Positions 2,963-62,291 of a stretch of DNA of 64,000 nt are shown here, piece after piece. The translations under genes and the position numbers were made by a program. Numbering within the stretch: the stretch's first letter is position 1; each line of letters opens with the position of its first letter. The notes beneath the pieces are model-generated. The model did not search any database, had not been told where the DNA came from, and worked only from the letters and a program-made list of their open reading frames with translations. Source of the stretch: Advenella incenata (GTDB lineage Bacteria > Pseudomonadota > Gammaproteobacteria > Burkholderiales > Burkholderiaceae_B); the NCBI RefSeq assembly GCF_004217095.1, contig NZ_SHKO01000001.1:1550001-1614000 (forward strand), read 5' to 3'.

Positions 2963-4537
2963 TTACGCCACTTCATGCTGATTCATTTCACGCAGACGGA
3001 AGCGCTGGATTTTGCCGGTTGCCGTTTTGGGCAATTCATCCAGAAATTCAATGCTGCGTGGATATTTGTGCGGCGCCAGCCGGGATTTGACAAAGGCCTT
3101 GAGTGCATCCTTGAGTGTGTCGTCAGCCGGTGGCGCCGTTTCCTTGAGCACCACATAGGCGCGGGTCTTGACCAGGCCCTGCGAATCGGCAACGCCGATG
3201 ACGGCCGCCTCCAGGACGGCTTCATGCTCTATGAGTGTGGCCTCCACTTCGAAGGGAGACACATACTGTCCGCTTACCTTGAGCATGTCGTCGCTGCGAC
3301 CCGCATAGGTGTAATAGCCGTCGGCATCGCGCGAATACTTGTCGCCACTTTTGGTCCACTCCCCCTGAAATGTTGCTCTTGTCTTTTCCCGGTTGTTCCA
3401 GTACATGAGGGCAGCGCTTTTTCCCTTGATGTACAGATCGCCGATTTCGCCATCTGCGACGATAGCACCTTGCTCGTCGCGAAGCTCGAGTTCATAGCCG
3501 GGTACGGGTTTTCCTGTGGTGCCATAGCGGATGTCATCAGGCTTGTTGGACAGAAAAATATGCAACATTTCAGTTGAGCCGATGCCATCGATGATATGAC
3601 ATCCGAAATGAGCCGTGAAGCGCTCGCCAAGTTCCCGTGGCAGCGCCTCCCCGGCTGAAGAACACATCCGCAATTGCACCTCGTCCCGGGTGGGCGTGTT
3701 GGCTGCCGCCAGCATGCCGGCATAACCGGTTGGCGCACCGCAAAACACCGTCGGCTGGTGTTTGCGCATCGCCTCGAACACAGCATCCGGAGTAGGGCGG
3801 CCTTCGATCAGGATCACGCTGGCGCCGACGCCCAGAGGGAAGGTCAGGGCATTGCCCAACCCGTAGGCAAAAAACAGTTTTGCGGCCGACAGAATACGAT
3901 CCGACTCGGTCAGCCGCAGCAGGTCTTGCGCATAATAACGAATGGTCCAGTAAGGGTTGGCATGACTGTGGATTGTGCCCTTGGGCTTGCCGGTTGAGCC
4001 AGAAGAGTACAGCCAGAAGGCCGGCTCATCGGCCCTGGTGCTACAGGGGCGATGACAGGGCGTGGCGGCAGCCAGCGCCTGTTCCATGCTCAACTGGCCG
4101 TGCGAGAGTTCACCTTGCGGGCGCGACACCAGGATATGCTTGATTTCATGCTCTGCTTCGCTCATGGCCTGGGCCAGCACCGGCAGCAGCGTGGCCGACA
4201 CCATGGCGGCCTGACAGCGGCTGTCTTCAATAATGTATTTATAGTCCTGTGGTGTCAGCAGGGTGTTGATGGCAACTGGCACAATACCGGCATGAATCGC
4301 CCCCAGAAAGGCGACAGGCCAGTCTGTGCAATCGTTCATCAGCAACAATACCCGCTCCTCGCGGCGTACGCCCAGGTTTTTCAGTACCGCGGTCAGGCGC
4401 CGCACTTTGTCAAAAAGCGCTGCGTAGGTCAATGAGCCGTTGCCATCGATATACGCAATGCGATCCAGACGGCTCTGGTTGGTTTGCATCAGATAGTCGG
4501 CAATATTGAACTGATTGCTGTTTTCAGGGGTCTGCAT
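2963..4537 (-). CDS. bclA: Benzoate-CoA ligase
   Basis: This 524-residue member of the acyl-adenylate-forming family activates benzoate with ATP and coenzyme A, the first step of the aerobic benzoyl-CoA (box) pathway. The AMP-binding P-loop YSSGSTGKPKGT lies near residues 177-188, the segment CGAPTGYAGML is typical of benzoate-CoA ligases, and the C-terminal catalytic lysine lies in KTATGK near residue 509. The start at 4537 was chosen because GGAG lies seven bases upstream (GCGGAGTTAACCATG); an in-frame ATG 14 codons earlier lacks such a site. It lies between the transporter genes and the DUF4863 gene, all on the minus strand. A related aryl-CoA ligase (for instance 2-aminobenzoate) is possible, but box genes next door favour benzoate. 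Confidence 0.93.
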   Translation of the reverse strand: MQTPENSNQFNIADYLMQTNQSRLDRIAYIDGNGSLTYAALFDKVRRLTAVLKNLGVRREERVLLLMNDCTDWPVAFLGAIHAGIVPVAINTLLTPQDYKYIIEDSRCQAAMVSATLLPVLAQAMSEAEHEIKHILVSRPQGELSHGQLSMEQALAAATPCHRPCSTRADEPAFWLYSSGSTGKPKGTIHSHANPYWTIRYYAQDLLRLTESDRILSAAKLFFAYGLGNALTFPLGVGASVILIEGRPTPDAVFEAMRKHQPTVFCGAPTGYAGMLAAANTPTRDEVQLRMCSSAGEALPRELGERFTAHFGCHIIDGIGSTEMLHIFLSNKPDDIRYGTTGKPVPGYELELRDEQGAIVADGEIGDLYIKGKSAALMYWNNREKTRATFQGEWTKSGDKYSRDADGYYTYAGRSDDMLKVSGQYVSPFEVEATLIEHEAVLEAAVIGVADSQGLVKTRAYVVLKETAPPADDTLKDALKAFVKSRLAPHKYPRSIEFLDELPKTATGKIQRFRLREMNQHEVA

Positions 4538-4698
4538 GGTTAACTCCGCTAAATGCCTGGCTGCTTGCTGCCAGCTCACTTCAAGTTGTTGGCACTGCCG
4601 CGCTGCGAGTGGATCAATTGGCTGCCTGTACCGGTCTTGCGCAACCTCAGTACGGCGGCAGCCTGCTTATTAACAGGATCTGAAGGTGCATTGACCTG

Positions 4699-5169
4699 TC
4701 ATTGCGGCTGCGCCGTGAATTCAATTTTTCCTTCCGGCAGCAAATACAGCACATGGGCGGCACCGTTGCTGACGGTGGGACAATGTGCGGAGTCCGGGCC
4801 ATAGACTTTCCAGCCGGCATCACAGCCATCAAATCGGGCGCCGGGGGTGAGCGGCATGATCAGATCAATTTCGCCATTGGGATGGCGGTGATGGGGGCCG
4901 CGGATATCCTGCATGCTCACCACATCTACCGAAAATCCATGGGTCGCTTCGGACGGTTTGGTCACCCGGCCGTATTTGAGTCCCTGTGCTTCGTGCTTGC
5001 ACATCCAGCCATCCTGCACGCCTGCAATACAGGCAGCGCTGATGTCGTGGTACCACTGGCTGTCGGCACCGTAGTGACTATTGAGCCAGCCCTGTAACGT
5101 TTCATCGAGCGGACGGTCTGCGATCTGCCGGGTTACTGTCTGGATGAGCGTGTCGAAATGTTCACGCAT
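4699..5169 (-). CDS. DUF4863 family protein (4-hydroxylaminobenzoate lyase-like)
   Basis: This 156-residue protein belongs to the DUF4863 family, some members of which are annotated as 4-hydroxylaminobenzoate lyase (PnbB). The C-terminal half looks like a small cupin: HHRHPNGEIDLIMPL carries a His cluster and an acidic residue typical of a metal site, followed by GPDSAHCPTVSNG and VLYLLPEGKIEF. The start at 5169 follows AAGGAGACTTTCAGT; an earlier ATG at 5220 has no such site and would overlap the TGCA operator region. It is the first gene transcribed leftward from the boxR intergenic region, probably in one operon with benzoate-CoA ligase. Its job in benzoate breakdown is not established; a side-reaction or detoxification role is only a guess. 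Confidence 0.82.
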   Translation of the reverse strand: MREHFDTLIQTVTRQIADRPLDETLQGWLNSHYGADSQWYHDISAACIAGVQDGWMCKHEAQGLKYGRVTKPSEATHGFSVDVVSMQDIRGPHHRHPNGEIDLIMPLTPGARFDGCDAGWKVYGPDSAHCPTVSNGAAHVLYLLPEGKIEFTAQPQ

Positions 5170-5205
5170 ACTGAAAGTCTCCTTAACACCTGATTTTTTT
5201 TTTCG

Positions 5206-5243
5206 TGCATTATTTTGCATGTAGATGATAAGATAGGCATGCA
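5206..5243. promoter_or_regulatory. Putative BoxR operator (TGCA-N6-TGCA) in the boxR/DUF4863 intergenic region
   Basis: TGCA occurs at 5206-5209 and 5216-5219, separated by exactly six bases, and a third TGCA lies at 5240-5243. BzdR, the well-studied relative of BoxR, recognises TGCA-containing repeats, so these are the expected kind of site. The cluster sits between the DUF4863 start and the boxR start and could repress both directions. The same arrangement recurs upstream of boxC. Confidence 0.55.
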
Positions 5244-5315
5244 GTTAAAATCAGTCAAGATTTTTGCTCAATCTTTAGGGAAAACACTAGCTCCCGATTT
5301 ACGAAATGGCACGCT

Positions 5316-6230
5316 ATGACGCTGGAAAATTCATTTGAAATAGATCCAATGGAAGACAAGACGCCGCTGTTGCGAGCGTTGGGCGAGCGGATTCGCTCGC
5401 TGCGCGCGCGCAAGGGAATTACGCGCAAGAAGCTGGCGAGCCTGGCGGGTATTTCCGAGCGCCATATGGCCAATCTTGAGCTGGGTACCGGCAATGCAAC
5501 CATACTGGTGCTGCATCAGGTGGCCCAGGCGCTGACGTGTTCGCTGGCCGAGCTCATCGGCGACGTTACCACCTCGTCGCCCGAATGGCTGATGATCCGC
5601 GAGTTGCTGGAGAACCGCAGCGAGAAAGATCTGCACAAAGTGCGGCTGCGGTTGATTGAACTGTTCGGTGCCGACAAAACGCCGGGCTCGCGCCTGTCAC
5701 GCATTGCCCTCATTGGTCTGCGCGGCGCCGGCAAATCCACGTTGGGCCGTATGCTGGCTGACCGGCTTGGCTATCCGTTCATCGAGTTGTCGCATGAAAT
5801 CGAACAGACAACCGGTTGCAGCATCAACGAGATCCATTCACTGTATGGCCCCGTGGCCTACCGTCGCTACGAACGGCGTGCGCTGGAAGAAACCATCCAG
5901 CTGTATCCTGAAGTAGTGATTGCCACGCCGGGCGGGCTGGTTTCCGAAGCGGCCACCTACAACAATCTATTGGAGCATTGCCTGACGGTCTGGCTGCAGG
6001 CCACGCCGCGCGAGCACATGGACCGGGTCATCGCCCAGGGGGATTTTCGCCCCATGTCCGGCAGCAAGGAAGCCATGCATGACCTGAAGCTGATTCTGGA
6101 GGGCCGGGTGGCCTTCTACAGCAAGGCCGATGTGCATCTGGATACCAGTCTTCAGCCTCTTGAGGAGACTTTTGATGCGTTGTTTGCGAAGGTCCAGGCC
6201 GCCCGCCAGTCCGCTGAAATGCTGACGTGA
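5316..6230 (+). CDS. boxR: BoxR, benzoyl-CoA-responsive repressor (XRE HTH plus shikimate-kinase-like domain)
   Basis: This 304-residue regulator has an XRE-type helix-turn-helix at about residues 19-80 (RIRSLRARKGITRKKLASLA, GISERHMANLELGTG) joined to a shikimate-kinase-like domain. The kinase P-loop GLRGAGKST lies at residues 134-142 and ATPGGLVSE follows at about residue 205. This architecture is diagnostic of BzdR/BoxR proteins, where the kinase-like part binds benzoyl-CoA and releases the HTH from DNA. It lies between the leftward ligase operon and the rightward boxCBA operon, and TGCA-N6-TGCA sites are present on both sides. No strong ribosome site precedes the ATG at 5316; the in-frame ATG at 5349 is an alternative start. 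Confidence 0.93.
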   Translation: MTLENSFEIDPMEDKTPLLRALGERIRSLRARKGITRKKLASLAGISERHMANLELGTGNATILVLHQVAQALTCSLAELIGDVTTSSPEWLMIRELLENRSEKDLHKVRLRLIELFGADKTPGSRLSRIALIGLRGAGKSTLGRMLADRLGYPFIELSHEIEQTTGCSINEIHSLYGPVAYRRYERRALEETIQLYPEVVIATPGGLVSEAATYNNLLEHCLTVWLQATPREHMDRVIAQGDFRPMSGSKEAMHDLKLILEGRVAFYSKADVHLDTSLQPLEETFDALFAKVQAARQSAEMLT

Positions 6231-56058: not shown

Positions 56059-57819
56059 TTAGGACCATGAATCCCGCAGCGTAACACAGCGGTTCAATAC
56101 CGGGTTTTCAGGAGTGGAGTCTTTGGCATCTGCGACAAAATAGCCCAGCCGCTCAAATTGCCAACGGGCGCCGGGTGTGGCAGTAAAGCCCGGTTCGAGC
56201 CAGGCGTTGACGCGCTGCACCGAGTCGGGGTTCAGATAATCAAGAAAATTCTTGTCGCCGCTGTCGGGAGACGCGTCGGTGAAGAGTCGGTCGTAGAGCA
56301 TGACCGTCGCCGGCACGGCATGGGCAGCGCTGATCCAGGTGATATTGCCCTTGACCTTGACGCTGTCGGCGCCTGGCGTGCCGCTTTTTGTGTCGGGAAG
56401 GTATTCGGCATATACATGCGTAATGTTACCGGCCTCGTCTTTGTCAAAGCCGGTGCATTTGATTACATAAGCATATTTGAGCCTGACGGTATTGCCGGGG
56501 AACAGGCGGAAATATTTCTTTGGCGGCTCTTCGCGGAAGTCGTCGCGTTCTATCAGCAATTCGCGCGAAAAGGGAAACTCGCGCCGGCCGGCCTGTGCGT
56601 CGTGCGGGTTGCGCGGGGCGCTGCACGCCTCGGTCTGGCCTTCGGGATAATTGGTAATAATGAGCTTGATCGGATCGAGCACAGCGACACTGCGATCGGC
56701 AATCGGATCAAGGTCATCGCGCAGCGCCTGCTCAAGCAGACTATAGTCAATCCGTGAGTCGGACTTGGATACACCCAGGCGATCACAGAAAAGTTTGAGC
56801 GAGGACGGCGTATAGCCGCGGCGACGCAGCCCGGCAAGGGTGGGCATGCGCGGATCATCCCAGCCGGTGACATGGCCTTCACGCACCAGTTGCAGCAGCT
56901 TGCGCTTGCTGGTCACGACATGCTTGAGGTTCAGGCGCGCAAATTCATACTGGCGGGGTAGCGGATCGCGCAACTGGCCCAGTTCCATCAGTCGGGCCAG
57001 CACCCAGTCATAAAATGGCCGCTGGTCTTCGAATTCCAGGGTACAGATGCTATGGGTGATGCCTTCGAGCGCATCCTCTATCGGATGGGCGTAAGTGTAC
57101 ATGGGGTAGATGCACCAGTCGTTGCCGGTGCGGTGATGTGCCGCATGGCGAATACGATATAGCACCGGATCCCGCATATTGATATTGGGCGAGGCCATGT
57201 CCACTTTGGCGCGCAGCGCCAGGCTGCCGTCAGGGTGTTTGCCCGCTTTCATTTCACGCAGCAGTGTCAGTGAAGACTCGGGCGAGCGATCACGCCAGGG
57301 CGAATCGACGCCGGCCGAGGTAAGCGTGCCGCGGTTGAGCCGGATCTGTTCAGGCGACTGTTCATCGACATAGGCATAACCGCCCTTGATCAGCGCTTCG
57401 GCGAAGTCGTACATGTAGCCAAAGTAATCACTGGCGAAATAGCGGTTTTCCTCGCCGTCGGGCCCTTTGGTGGTAAAACCCAGCCACTCGAGCGTGTCGT
57501 CAATGGCATCCACATATTCCTGCTCTTCCTTTTCAGGATTGGTATCGTCAAAGCGCAAATGGCAGGTGCCACCATAATCGCGCGCCAGGCCGAAATTCAG
57601 GCAGATGCTTTTGGCGTGCCCGATATGCAGGTAGCCATTGGGCTCGGGTGGAAAACGGGTGCGGATGCGGGCCGGGTCTTTCGGTGCATTCTGCAAAACC
57701 GAAGCTGGCCCGGGTTCACCGGCCCATCTTTTTGATTGATAGCGGTCGTTGCTCAGATCGTTTTCAATGATGGTTCGCAAAAAATTAGCGGCAGGAAGCT
57801 CTGGCGTTGAGGCGGACAT
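56059..57819 (-). CDS. glnS: Glutaminyl-tRNA synthetase
   Basis: This 586-residue class I synthetase shows the HIGH motif in PPEPNGYLHIGHAKS and the KMSKS-like VTSKRKLLQLV, together with RFDDTNPEKEEQEYVD and the C-terminal anticodon-binding beta-barrels. Length is normal. It lies just upstream of minC on the same strand and is divergent from the bd-like pair. It charges tRNA(Gln) directly. Confidence 0.97.
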   Translation of the reverse strand: MSASTPELPAANFLRTIIENDLSNDRYQSKRWAGEPGPASVLQNAPKDPARIRTRFPPEPNGYLHIGHAKSICLNFGLARDYGGTCHLRFDDTNPEKEEQEYVDAIDDTLEWLGFTTKGPDGEENRYFASDYFGYMYDFAEALIKGGYAYVDEQSPEQIRLNRGTLTSAGVDSPWRDRSPESSLTLLREMKAGKHPDGSLALRAKVDMASPNINMRDPVLYRIRHAAHHRTGNDWCIYPMYTYAHPIEDALEGITHSICTLEFEDQRPFYDWVLARLMELGQLRDPLPRQYEFARLNLKHVVTSKRKLLQLVREGHVTGWDDPRMPTLAGLRRRGYTPSSLKLFCDRLGVSKSDSRIDYSLLEQALRDDLDPIADRSVAVLDPIKLIITNYPEGQTEACSAPRNPHDAQAGRREFPFSRELLIERDDFREEPPKKYFRLFPGNTVRLKYAYVIKCTGFDKDEAGNITHVYAEYLPDTKSGTPGADSVKVKGNITWISAAHAVPATVMLYDRLFTDASPDSGDKNFLDYLNPDSVQRVNAWLEPGFTATPGARWQFERLGYFVADAKDSTPENPVLNRCVTLRDSWS

Positions 57820-57924: not shown

Positions 57925-59085
57925 ATGTGGGATATTTCATCATTACAGCTGGCAAAACTGCAGTTTTTCAGTTCGCTCTCCTTTTTTTCCGTTTTCGGAC
58001 TGTGTACGGTCGTCCTGGGCTGGTTGCTGCTGTTTTGTAAATGCATGACGCATCGCAAGGCTGCCGACGGGCGCTGGATGGATATGTACCGCTTCTGGGT
58101 GCGTATTTTCGCGCTTTCGATGACTGTATCACTGCTGGGTATGGTGTTTCTCCTAGTCCAGTCTGGCGCCTTATGGCCCAATCTGTTCGTGCGGCTGGGG
58201 CCCGTCAGCGGTCCGCTTATCGTCCTGATCGCTGCGAGCACATTCATCATTAAACTGTTCGTGACGGACATCATGCTGTATCGCCAGGGGACACTTTCAT
58301 CCTGGTTGCATAGCATTTTTGTATTGCTGGCCGCGCTCGGCCTGACCGTTATTGCCGGGCTGTTGATTTGCTTTCAGAGCTGGCTGCATTTTCCGGCCGG
58401 ACTGGCACCTGACACCGTCCCGCTTACCCTGACTGACTGGCGTGCGTTTATCCTGCAGGCCCAGGCCTGGCATCGCGTCACCTTCATGATCGCACTGGGT
58501 TGCCTGGGTGTCGGCGGGCTGATGGTATCGATCAGCGCCAGCGAGGCCCTGTCCAAACCCTTGAATGCGGCCGAACAGCTGGGATTCAGCATAGGCACGG
58601 GGTTGACAACCTTGGGGTTGGGCGTGCTGGCCGCCAGCGGCGCTGTTTTTCAAACCGAACTGTTCCGGCAGGTAGCGCCGCTGCCGATCATCGGGCTTTG
58701 GGCGCAAAAAATTGTGCTCGGCCTGCTCCTGTTGCTTGCACTGGTGTCTTTGGTTCAGTGGTGCTGGTATTTGAAGCGGCGCAGCGATTTCGGCAAATTG
58801 CCGCGCTGGGTGCAGCGCGTGCTGGTTTGGGTCGCGCCTGCGAGCTGGCTGGTCCTGTGGCTGACGCACGTCCTGCTATCGCTGCGCGATGGCCAGTATT
58901 TCGTACATGGGCTGGTGACCTACGCTGAGGCGTTCAGCAGTGAGCAGGGCGTCGTGCTGATTAGCGCTGTCACCGTTGTCATGTGGTTGTTGTTCGCTGT
59001 GATTTTGGCCGGTTTCATTTTCCTGGCACGCCGCGCGGCCCGCTATGGCGTCGTGCCTGTGCGTAAGATCCGGAGAACGGCATGA
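57925..59085 (+). CDS. Divergent cytochrome bd subunit I-like membrane protein lacking usual haem ligands
   Basis: This 386-residue protein has about nine hydrophobic segments and aligns in outline with CydA: LAKLQFFSSLSFF takes the place of the N-terminal S-R-x-Q-F...H motif, FWVRIFALSMTVSLLGMVF follows, and the gene overlaps cydB. By my reading, the haem-ligand His of the first motif (E. coli H19) is Phe, the two Glu of helix III (E99, E107) are hydrophobic, the ligand His of helix V (H186) is not in register, and the GRQPW motif and long Q-loop are missing. It is about 130 residues shorter than normal CydA. It may be a degenerate oxidase subunit or a new activity. Confidence 0.72.
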   Translation: MWDISSLQLAKLQFFSSLSFFSVFGLCTVVLGWLLLFCKCMTHRKAADGRWMDMYRFWVRIFALSMTVSLLGMVFLLVQSGALWPNLFVRLGPVSGPLIVLIAASTFIIKLFVTDIMLYRQGTLSSWLHSIFVLLAALGLTVIAGLLICFQSWLHFPAGLAPDTVPLTLTDWRAFILQAQAWHRVTFMIALGCLGVGGLMVSISASEALSKPLNAAEQLGFSIGTGLTTLGLGVLAASGAVFQTELFRQVAPLPIIGLWAQKIVLGLLLLLALVSLVQWCWYLKRRSDFGKLPRWVQRVLVWVAPASWLVLWLTHVLLSLRDGQYFVHGLVTYAEAFSSEQGVVLISAVTVVMWLLFAVILAGFIFLARRAARYGVVPVRKIRRTA

Positions 59086-60137
59086 TCGATACACTGGCGG
59101 GCTCTTTGGGACTCAATAGCTACGATCCGGGCTTCTGGATGCCGCTGCTTTGTTTTACCGTGTTTCTGGGTGTGTCCATCGCCGGCGCCGTCCTGGACGG
59201 CTTCGATTTGGGCGTGGGCATGCTGATGCCTTTTGCTACACCGGAGCAGCGGGCCCGGATGTTTACGTTCCTTGGCCCATGGCGCGACATGAATGTCTTC
59301 TGGATTTTCTTCGGTTGCGCCATCTTGCTGTCGGCCTTTCCCAAGGCATGGGCGTATGTAAGCGGCGCCCTGTATTTACCGTTGATGTTGCTGGCTGCTG
59401 GTGCCTTGTTGCGTGGCGTAGCCTATGAGTTTCGGCTGCGTGCACTGGCAGGGGGCCGCTCTGTGTTTGCTGCCGCCTTTGCTGTTGGCTCGCTGCTGAC
59501 CGCTTTCGGGCAGGGGCTGGTGCTCGGCCGAATCGCTGTCAATTTCGGTACCGAGCCCGGCAGCCAATTGTTTGCTGTATTCATTGCACTGTGCACTGTG
59601 GCGACATTCGTCCTGCTGGGTGCTACCTGGCTGCTGATGCGGGTCGAAGACGATCTGCAGTTGCAGGCCCGGGGATGGGTGCGTCGGGCATCCCGCCTGA
59701 CCGCTGCGGGTGTGGTGGCCGTCTCTGTGGCGCTGGGCATGGTCAACGGCGGGGTGTTTTTCAAGTGGACTGAAACGACCAGGCTGCCGGTGGTGCTGAT
59801 CGGCTGGTTTGCCTTGCTTGCCATGTTCGTGCTGGTCGAACTGGTGGTGCGCAAGGTACAGCGCGTGCGCCTGCTTATCTGGCTGCCATTCATTCTTACG
59901 ATTTTGATTGTCTTGAGCGTGATTGCCGGACTGGTGTTCAGTATTTTCCCGTTTTTTGTATTGGATGAGCTGACCATTTGGGAAAGTGTGACCAGCCTGG
60001 GAACAATCCGCTTGCTGGTCGTGGCCTTTGCATTGTTCCTGGTGGTGCTGCCACTGGTCACGCTGTGGTATTACCGGGATATGCTGGGCAAGGAGCGCAA
60101 GGCCAAAGATGTGTCGTTTATGAAGCGGGCGGATTAG
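59082..60137 (+). CDS. cydB: Cytochrome bd-type subunit II (CydB-like)
   Basis: This 351-residue membrane protein has the CydB marker GAVLDGFDLGVGMLMPFATP and ends TIWESVTSLGTIRLL, which matches the usual TIWDAASS-type segment. The segment normally reading WDGNxVWL is RDMNVFWIFF here, so it also departs from the standard. The start overlaps the previous gene's stop as ATGA, after GGAGAACGGC. The two are clearly one unit. The gene end overlaps the kinase gene tail-to-tail by 20 bases. Confidence 0.85.
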   Translation: MIDTLAGSLGLNSYDPGFWMPLLCFTVFLGVSIAGAVLDGFDLGVGMLMPFATPEQRARMFTFLGPWRDMNVFWIFFGCAILLSAFPKAWAYVSGALYLPLMLLAAGALLRGVAYEFRLRALAGGRSVFAAAFAVGSLLTAFGQGLVLGRIAVNFGTEPGSQLFAVFIALCTVATFVLLGATWLLMRVEDDLQLQARGWVRRASRLTAAGVVAVSVALGMVNGGVFFKWTETTRLPVVLIGWFALLAMFVLVELVVRKVQRVRLLIWLPFILTILIVLSVIAGLVFSIFPFFVLDELTIWESVTSLGTIRLLVVAFALFLVVLPLVTLWYYRDMLGKERKAKDVSFMKRAD

Positions 60138-61587
60138 CCCGAGGCAGGGTGACCGTTACCAGCAGGCCGCCGCTATCGCTGCTATCCAGTGTGAGCTTGC
60201 CGTTATGCGCACTGACGATGGTTTCTGCAAGCGATAGCCCCAGGCCGACGCTGCCGGTCATGGTCCGGGCTGAATCCAGGCGCGAAAACGCGCGCAGTGC
60301 TTCCGAGCGGCGTTCTGTCGGAATTCCGTCGCCATGATCGGCCACAGAAAGCATCGCCTGGTCGGCGGTCAGCGTCAGGCAGACATCCACCGGAGGACGC
60401 CCGTGCTTGAGAGCGTTGCTGATCAGGTTGTCCAGAACGCGCCCCAGCGACAAGGTATCGGCGCTGACATAGGCTGTCGTGGCGGGCAGGGGACGCAGAT
60501 GCACCGGGCTGCCAGCATCATGCCAGGAAGCGACGCGCTCCTCAACCCAATCGCAGATATTGACGGACTGGAACTTATAGGTGGCCAGGTCCGATCCCCG
60601 CACATAGCTGATGAACTGGTCAATCATGTCCTGCATTTCGTGCACGTCGTTGCGCATGCCTTCCTTGAACGTCGTGTCATCGGTCAGTTCTACGCGCAGT
60701 CGCATGCGCGCCAGCGGGCTTTTCAGGTCATGGGGCAGGCCGGCCAGCAGGGTCTGCTGAACAGCCTTGGATTCTTCCAGCGCATCCAGCATGGCGTTGA
60801 AGCGTTCGCCGAGCTGACGGGTTTCAGTCGGACCTGCCGGAGTGACGCGTTCCGGACGTCCCTGAGCCAGTTTGTCTGCGGCCAGGGTGAGACGGGTCAG
60901 CGGGCGCGTGATATGCCAGGCGAACCCGGCAGCCAGAATCAATAGCAGGCCAGTCAGGCTCAGCCAGGCGATGGTAATCGCATGCATGTTTGGCGGCTGG
61001 ATACGGTCCAACGGAATAACCAGCCATTCGCGGATGAATTGCGTGCCGTCATCGTCCGATTGGAGCGAAATGAACATGCGCGGTGTCGGCCCGCGTGTCA
61101 GACCGACTCGCGTTCCGTCATCCAGCTCCATATTGAGTCGTTTGACGATCTTCAGGATGTCACTGCTGGGCTGCTGGGCAAGGTGCGACGGCCCTGGGGG
61201 CGGTTTCTGGGCAGCCTGGCGACGGGCACGCTCTACTTCACGAGCCGCTTCCGGCACAGGCGGCGGCGCTGGTGCGATGGGGGAGTCAAGTGTGCCACCG
61301 CGGCGTCGCCGATTGGCATAGGGGTCGGCACGCGAAAGCAGGTACCAGCGCTTTTGGGATGCCTCGATAATGAAATCGGCGCGGCGGTTTTCAGGAATCT
61401 GCGATACGGCTGAGCGTAGCGTACGGATGGTGGTAGACAGGTAATTGACAACGATATCTTCCAGGAAACGTTCCTTGATATAGTTGCCGACTGTGAAGCT
61501 GCCGAGCTGCACGAGAATCACAGTGCCAAGAATGAAGAGGATCATCTGCAGCCGCAAGGAGCGCGGCCACAGCGAAGGTTTTATCAT
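60118..61587 (-). CDS. envZ: EnvZ-like sensor histidine kinase
   Basis: This 489-residue inner-membrane kinase has two transmembrane segments (about residues 13-30 and 203-224) around a periplasmic sensor region, then a HAMP domain (ITRPLTRLTLAADKLAQG), the phospho-His in LPHDLKSPLARMRL (His286), and the ATP-binding N and G boxes (NLISNALKHG, DHGDGIP, GLGLSLAE). The H-box and the QFISYVRG segment match EnvZ closely. The sensor region holds a Pro/Ala/Arg-rich insert at about residues 102-142. Its start overlaps the response-regulator stop as ATGA. Confidence 0.9.
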   Translation of the reverse strand: MIKPSLWPRSLRLQMILFILGTVILVQLGSFTVGNYIKERFLEDIVVNYLSTTIRTLRSAVSQIPENRRADFIIEASQKRWYLLSRADPYANRRRRGGTLDSPIAPAPPPVPEAAREVERARRQAAQKPPPGPSHLAQQPSSDILKIVKRLNMELDDGTRVGLTRGPTPRMFISLQSDDDGTQFIREWLVIPLDRIQPPNMHAITIAWLSLTGLLLILAAGFAWHITRPLTRLTLAADKLAQGRPERVTPAGPTETRQLGERFNAMLDALEESKAVQQTLLAGLPHDLKSPLARMRLRVELTDDTTFKEGMRNDVHEMQDMIDQFISYVRGSDLATYKFQSVNICDWVEERVASWHDAGSPVHLRPLPATTAYVSADTLSLGRVLDNLISNALKHGRPPVDVCLTLTADQAMLSVADHGDGIPTERRSEALRAFSRLDSARTMTGSVGLGLSLAETIVSAHNGKLTLDSSDSGGLLVTVTLPRANPPAS

Positions 61588-62291
61588 GCGTCAGGAGAGA
61601 ATCGGTAGCCAATGCCCCAGACAGTTTGAATCCAGCGCGGGTCTTTGGGATCGTCTTCGACGGCGCGACGCAGACGCAGAATGGCGATATCGATGGCGCG
61701 GTCGTTGCGTTCGCCTTCGTCGTCATCGCGCGCCAGTGCAAGCAGCCGTTCACGGGACAGCGGTTTACCGGAGTTTTTGACCAGGGCTTCGAGCAGATTG
61801 ATTTCACCGCCGGTCAGCTTGACCTGGGCACTGTCCTTGAATAACTGACGCCGGGCCGGATCAAAGGTAAACGGGCCGAAATGCACCGGGGTTTCCTTGA
61901 CCAGCGCCGAGGCGCCTTTTTTACGTCGCAGCACGGTTTCGATGCGTGCCAGCAGTTCGCGCGGGTCAAAGGGTTTGCCAATATAGTCGTCGGCGCCGGA
62001 TTCGAGACCGATAATGCGATCCGCCGTTTCGTCCTTGGCCGTGAGCAGAATGACCGGAATATCTTCATTCTGGGCACGCAGCCTGCGGCAGGTTTCCACA
62101 CCATCGCCACCGGGCAGCATGCGGTCAAGCACGATCAGGTCAGGTGAAAATTTGGTTATACGCTGGTTAATATCGCTGGCGTCGGGTGCAAGCAGGGTAT
62201 CGTAACCATGACGGTTCAGATATTCCGCGAGAAGCTGGCGCAGGGCAGGATCGTCATCGACGACGAGAATTTTTGTCAGTTGCTTGTCCAT
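61584..62291 (-). CDS. ompR: OmpR-like response regulator
   Basis: This 235-residue regulator has a receiver domain (VVDDDPALRQLLAEYL, phospho-Asp56 in LIVLDRMLPG, KPFDPRELLARI) and a C-terminal winged-helix OmpR-type domain (GEINLLEALVKNSGKPLSRERL, IQTVWGIGYRF). Close similarity to OmpR across both domains supports the name. It is co-transcribed with the kinase gene. The Bordetella relatives are called RisA/RisS. Confidence 0.92.
   Translation of the reverse strand: MDKQLTKILVVDDDPALRQLLAEYLNRHGYDTLLAPDASDINQRITKFSPDLIVLDRMLPGGDGVETCRRLRAQNEDIPVILLTAKDETADRIIGLESGADDYIGKPFDPRELLARIETVLRRKKGASALVKETPVHFGPFTFDPARRQLFKDSAQVKLTGGEINLLEALVKNSGKPLSRERLLALARDDDEGERNDRAIDIAILRLRRAVEDDPKDPRWIQTVWGIGYRFSPDA

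Follow-up and report, generated by a model that had tools for sequence, protein, structure and literature searches.

A cytochrome bd-like gene pair lacking the canonical haem ligands beside glnS in Advenella incenata and related genera

The window analysed here is a stretch of 64,000 nucleotides from Advenella incenata (assembly GCF_004217095.1, contig NZ_SHKO01000001.1, positions 1,550,001 to 1,614,000 of the forward strand), and it contains a pair of genes, here called cydA' and cydB', whose products resemble the two subunits of cytochrome bd oxidase (Table 1). Both products exceed the curated Pfam cut-offs of the cytochrome bd fold families, CydA' with 93.9 bits against PF01654 (cut-off 26.2) and CydB' with 180.1 bits against PF02322 (cut-off 35.6), and a sequence search of the PDB returned solved bd oxidases as the best matches of both. 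The adjacent CydB subunit of a bd oxidase is likewise present, the reading frames of cydA' and cydB' overlapping by ATGA. The original prediction had credited the first gene with the topology and operon partner of CydA, and the second with the motif DGFDLGVGM, and in these respects it was right. Matches to CydA' in three Advenella genomes share 74-91% identity. On another contig the A. incenata genome carries a second CydAB, which is canonical, its CydA retaining all seven of the residues considered below. A promoter scan found no promoter-like site, and terminator-like sites occurred at chance level. The C-terminal stretch AARYGVVPVRK of CydA' (window 59035-59082) varies hardly at all among 11 close relatives, and it is also well conserved across a 16-row alignment.

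Table 1. Genes and residues of interest in the window (residue numbers in the first column are those of the window proteins)
Feature	Position	Strand	Remark
glnS	56059..57819	-	divergent neighbour, locus marker
CydA' (CydA-like subunit)	57925..59085	+	386 aa; without Q-loop, without haem ligands
CydA' F21 codon	57985..57987	+	position of haem ligand H19
CydA' I102 codon	58228..58230	+	at the place of E99
CydA' K110 codon	58252..58254	+	at the place of E107
CydA' H129 codon (= E. coli H126)	58309..58311	+	sole His invariant in 11 close relatives
CydA' F187 codon	58483..58485	+	at the place of b558 ligand H186
CydA' Q-loop deletion, approximate place	58624..58680	+	roughly E. coli 238-380 missing
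CydA' V264 codon	58714..58716	+	at the place of b558 ligand M393
CydA' S319 to D322	58879..58890	+	at the place of E445 to R448 (GRQPW region)
CydB' (CydB-like subunit)	59082..60137	+	351 aa; better conserved than CydA'
CydB' R68 codon	59283..59285	+	corresponds to E. coli CydB W57
CydB' D69 codon	59286..59288	+	corresponds to E. coli CydB D58, where the published proton water chain ends (PMC6853902)
CydB' E116 to R120	59427..59441	+	= E. coli D105 to K109, proton path
EnvZ-like sensor kinase	60118..61587	-	tail to tail with cydB', 20-base overlap
OmpR-like response regulator	61584..62291	-	beyond the EnvZ-like kinase

The functional residues of E. coli CydA were mapped onto CydA' by alignment to solved CydA chains, by a MAFFT alignment of 105 CydA proteins, and by a third alignment with 73 rows of the haem-less clade described below and 84 canonical rows; the three were concordant. 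H19, R448, K252, E257 and the GRQPW motif are taken with the functional roles usually assigned to them. At E. coli H19, E99, E107, H186, M393, E445 and R448 the window protein has F21, I102, K110, F187, V264, S319 and D322, so that none of the seven checked haem or active-site residues is retained, neither the haem d/b595 ligands and acids (H19, E99, E445) and E107 nor the two ligands of haem b558 (H186 and M393). Of these, E99, H186, M393 and E445 are described as haem ligands in bd oxidase in PMC5322542 and PMC6853902. The Q-loop is absent, with E. coli K252 falling opposite a gap and E257 falling opposite a gap in the 105-protein alignment and opposite G239 in the 73 + 84-row alignment, while the GRQPW stretch reads LRDGQY.

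The mapping of ligands against the bd superfamily that the original prediction had proposed thus bears out its central claim, the loss of most haem ligands, along with its readings that the N-terminal haem histidine is phenylalanine (all alignments agree), that the helix V histidine is out of register (H183 of AWHRV lies four residues before F187) and that GRQPW and the Q-loop are gone. Its statement that hydrophobic residues replace the glutamate pair of helix III holds for E99 and fails for E107, where the residue is a lysine. The prediction would have fallen had the histidines of AWHRV or LTHVLL been found at the canonical ligand positions, but in the sequence alignment both are off-register, H315 aligning with W441, and both vary among relatives, H183 and H315 even within Advenella. 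In an 11-row alignment of close relatives, the stretches reaching four residues to either side of the ligand positions contain no His, Met, Cys or acidic residue that is invariant, and neither an invariant Cys nor any invariant His other than H129 is found; H129 is also present in canonical CydA, and we take it to be no haem ligand. The suggestions of a different electron route or of another cofactor consequently find no support here. Two AlphaFold jobs, run for the window and loci L005-L007 only, gave mean pLDDT values of 51.7 and 45.9; the low-confidence model of CydA' has nine long helices, and Foldseek recovered the bd fold from it, the best ten matches all being bd-oxidase chains, but neither job reached the quality that ligand geometry demands, and the ligand map therefore rests on sequence alignment rather than on structure.

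The pair is far from peculiar to the window. We fetched 80 loci around good matches in the family, a non-random choice of one to a few per genus, and in 72 of them, from 34 genera of this one family, CydA' lies beside glnS and is divergent from it. CydB' follows CydA' in 70 of the 72, the other two running into a contig end, and an EnvZ or OmpR gene lies within the fetched stretch in 49. Contig ends cut L178 and L187. None of the 72 retains E99, E107 or H186; the remaining eight of the 80 do not adjoin glnS and are all canonical. The search among related genomes that had been suggested for the pair thus uncovers a clade extending across the family, larger than the original prediction saw. A first reading from a four-row profile, in which the haem-less form was restricted to Advenella, was rejected because weaker family matches also turned out to be haem-less. 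The best eleven matches listed from a search of 268 family genomes are full-length short forms, from ten genomes of the same genus (one each) and from one of another genus, G222, and long forms of CydA' are widespread in the family; a length of 446 aa recurs in 21 of the 41 loci (out of the 72) with a placeable start. In the 73 clade rows the site of K252 is Lys in 46 and Arg in 14, and that of E257 is Ala in 42.

Across 78 clade rows E99, E107 and H186 are never retained, while H19 is kept in seven (doubtfully in one, L158, as its frame starts late), M393 in six, E445 in five and R448 in five; 64 of the 78 rows retain none of the seven residues, as against all seven in 27 of 27 canonical rows. 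Another set, of 59 sequences, divides into 37 with all seven and 22 without E99, E107 and H186, although several of the 22 are genes that the 72 loci had already supplied. Outside the family we searched an order sample of 399 genomes with profile A2 (the 11-row alignment of short forms) and with profile A3, and a phylum sample of 398 genomes with A2. All 30 loci aligned from the 31 fetched in the A2 searches (L050 was left out) are canonical, as are all 23 loci read from the A3 search, in which 80 genomes matched at E 1e-90, these being partly the same genes as the A2 set; the result holds for the loci read, in the sampled genomes and above the thresholds. Among plasmid relatives four of 315 matching records were examined, and in each of them CydA has all seven residues.

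The clade's intermediates bear on whether haem could still be bound. One might propose that the protein binds one or more haems through other ligands, such as K110 or H183 and H315, and acts as an unusual oxidase or reductase. The position of K110, nearly invariant and at the place of E107, would suit this proposal, and so would L156 (G171; 3866-5353), which retains H19, M393, E445 and R448 though it has lost E99, E107 and H186, and four loci of genus g43 (L090, L098, L171 and L172), which retain H19 with E or D at position 445. L156 is a candidate, and the best that we have, for a partly haem-loaded, ancestor-like protein, and since some clade members do retain ligands, haem may survive there. 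Against other-ligand binding, however, stand the variation of H183 and H315 within a single genus, the want of an invariant Cys, or of an invariant His beyond H129, in the 11-row alignment, the absence of H186 and E99 from all 78 clade rows, and, in the window form, the missing Q-loop, and we regard this explanation as decidedly improbable.

In a tree of 107 proteins, built by a quick method and showing some long branches (nine near-duplicate or partial rows were dropped and 11 canonical rows added), the haem-less set forms one clade with an SH-aLRT support of 100. Its neighbours in the tree are canonical CydAs, for the most part shorter than that of E. coli, which we take to be of the CIO type, and the nearest fork has a support of 89. 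On this tree E99, E107 and H186 need one change each, compared to four for H19, six for M393, five for E445 and four for R448, so the b558 ligand and the helix III acids appear to have been lost first; the intermediates suggest that H19, M393, E445 and R448 followed. The Q-loop was additionally lost in Advenella and G222, and no version of the clade seen is more stripped down than that of Advenella.

Several known systems invite comparison. CIO-type cytochrome bd (CioAB) is a quinol oxidase with a short Q-loop, and it shares with the haem-less pair the fold, the gene order and the CydB partner; unlike CioAB, the clade has lost the haem ligands and GRQPW, has Lys in place of E107 and, in Advenella and G222, has no Q-loop at all. 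Against E. coli bd-I (CydAB), CydA' can be aligned over helices I-V and the C-terminal helices, and several proton-path residues are kept or conservatively changed in CydB', whereas every one of the seven tested functional residues is replaced in the window CydA'. A third case is the archaeal CydAA', said to have been described by Murali et al. in 2021 and reportedly an active b-haem oxidase made of two CydA paralogues. The likeness lies in a duplicated and diverged CydA, while the haem-less protein differs in pairing with a CydB and in lacking the haem ligands.

In place of the ligands the clade has acquired nearly fixed charges, as seen on comparing 73 CydA' with 84 canonical rows and 71 CydB' with 78 canonical rows. 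The E107 site is Lys in 70 and Arg in three of the 73 clade rows, compared with Glu in 84 of 84 canonical rows, a figure that is no unbiased survey, the rows having been picked by similarity to known canonical proteins. The W57 site of CydB is Arg in 70 of 71 clade rows as against Trp in 77 of 78 canonical ones. According to PMC6853902, a water chain in the E. coli enzyme runs from D119(A) via K57(A), K109(B), D105(B), Y379(B) and D58(B) to the haem d propionate, and two reference titles in that paper name E107, one or other of them placing it, protonated, in the vicinity of the haem d/b595 centre and within a proton pathway. Within the clade, K57(A) is Arg in 73/73 rows, K109(B) Arg in 71/71, D105(B) Glu in 71/71 and D58(B) still Asp in 67/71; Arg also occurs in canonical rows, at the K57 site in 13/84 and at the K109 site in 7/78. 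The path is kept in part, D119 being Arg in 62 of 73 clade rows (canonical rows are variable here too) and S140 being lost. As the alignments read, much of the charged network is retained while the haem that it fed is gone, and we infer that the pocket would now be salt-bridged or ligand-binding rather than a proton path to O2.

Within Advenella, to which these estimates apply, both genes are under purifying selection: dN/dS over 15 pairs for each gene is 0.116-0.184 (about 0.14) for cydA' and 0.038-0.081 (about 0.05) for cydB'. Six pairs from the Advenella group whose genomes are smaller give 0.124-0.206 for cydA'. The pairs are non-independent, and the ratios are rough because several dS values exceed 1. 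The subunits have also exchanged rank. Of 55 genome pairs, 49 show greater similarity in canonical CydA than in canonical CydB, whereas for the haem-less proteins CydA' is the more similar subunit in one of 55 and CydB' the better conserved in the other 54. The genome pairs are non-independent, and in some of them the canonical proteins set against each other belong to two types, but the reversal is clear, and constraint has shifted from subunit A to subunit B.

These values bear on the proposal that the pair consists of decaying pseudogenes. CydA-like matches with internal stops or in two frames exist (G064:C1:3891242-3892527 and G175:C120:6895-8079) and may be recent losses; cydB3, the probable Bordetella counterpart discussed below, is reported as disrupted in seven of 14 B. 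pertussis strains (PMC11257404); and eight genomes of genus g21, each of only 0.7-0.8 Mb, have no match to the haem-less profile at E 1e-60. Decay would, however, be hard to reconcile with dN/dS of 0.04-0.18 over the 15 Advenella pairs per gene, with specific and nearly fixed substitutions across the clade, which are not what drift leaves, or with the long CydA' frames in the 72 loci (picked, it is true, by good matches), and we consider it extremely improbable. In Advenella the argument is made by dN/dS, and in other genera by conserved residues and open frames only. In G046, glnS and envZ of locus L096 and also the canonical CydA (L235, L243) are split into two or three frames, and as several genes of this genome are split, this looks like assembly frameshifts rather than biology.

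Alternatively, the protein might serve a canonical bd oxidase of the same cell as assembly factor, decoy or regulatory partner, for instance by an association of CydB' with canonical CydA. A canonical CydA match does accompany the haem-less one in 15 of 15 genomes (ten of the window's genus) and in 19 of 22 in a second set. But three genomes of 99% completeness, G115, G157 and G127, have no PF01654 match besides the haem-less protein (3/22 is no rate, several of the 22 having been chosen for a seeming single match), and cydA' has its own cydB' in 70 of 72 loci. We therefore hold a helper role to be improbable. The original prediction had offered a transport or assembly role, of which assembly has become less likely on account of these three genomes; transport is taken up below.

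A probable counterpart of the pair has been studied in Bordetella under the name cydAB3. Bordetella cydAB3 is BB4012-4011 (BP3225-3224) (PMC11257404), BB4011 corresponds to BP3224 (PMC1891110), and RisK is BP3223, co-transcribed with the OmpR-like BP3222 (PMC5020355); the order BP3224-BP3222 matches the neighbourhood of cydB', EnvZ-like kinase and OmpR-like regulator. The published cyd3 deletion removes 2373 bases, beginning 41 bases ahead of cydA3 and reaching base 994 of cydB3 (PMC11257404). By calculation the two starts would lie about 1338 bases apart, a spacing that suits a CydA' of 446 aa whose gene overlaps the next by ATGA. Bordetella cydAB3 would thus probably be the same locus as the haem-less pair, an indirect identification by locus tags and deletion size. 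Two recent papers treat it as a terminal bd oxidase (PMC11257404, PMC12914433), which means that what is probably this locus is being counted among the terminal oxidases, and in the accessible part of PMC11257404 we found no mention of missing ligands. The same source reports that a delta-cyd3 mutant grows like wild type, that transcription of cyd3 is low, and that no strain depending on cyd3 alone could be obtained, nor one depending on cco, cio, ctaD2 or cyo2 alone. The failure of the cyd3-only strain would fit a non-oxidase reading, but the same outcome for four other oxidase loci makes it weak evidence.

Because the haem ligands have been lost and yet many related bacteria keep the pair, its job is probably not O2 respiration. 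Oxidase activity with the known haems seems very unlikely from the aligned residues, and we think it likely that CydA' and CydB' form a heterodimeric, haem-free pseudo-oxidase, a bd paralogue kept for a non-respiratory job. On this explanation quinol oxidation and O2 chemistry would have disappeared from a bd paralogue, the simplest course being a single loss at the root of an Alcaligenaceae clade, and the protein would have been retained afterwards for another job. With the haems gone, K110 and R68 might pair with D69 and neighbouring acids or, alternatively, might hold an anionic or quinone ligand where the haems used to sit, and the complex would work as a haem-free, CydB-centred membrane protein.

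What such a protein might do is a matter of graded guesses. Sensing of a ligand, of quinone or of membrane energy, or some other regulation, is the guess that we rank first, and tentatively; ion or solute transport is possible but doubtful; and some other structural role strikes us as unlikely. We further speculate, with considerable reserve, that the bd fold now serves as a membrane sensor or transporter, free of haem and centred on CydB, whose Lys and Arg bind an anionic or quinone ligand, and that the recurrent EnvZ/OmpR-type neighbourhood (RisK in Bordetella) may point to a functional link.

We found no description of haem-ligand loss in this family in the open-access literature, and the haem ligands are called invariant in a survey of bd oxidases from Proteobacteria (PMC5322542). 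Cytochrome bd is regarded as a haem enzyme. A bd-shaped complex devoid of the haem ligands persists in many genera of one family, and it presents a natural experiment on the role of CydB apart from haem chemistry. Family profiles still score the pair as a bd oxidase, and if it is none, terminal oxidase inventories for the family are too high by one. For G115, G157 and G127, a family-based pipeline would credit a bd oxidase that these bacteria probably lack.
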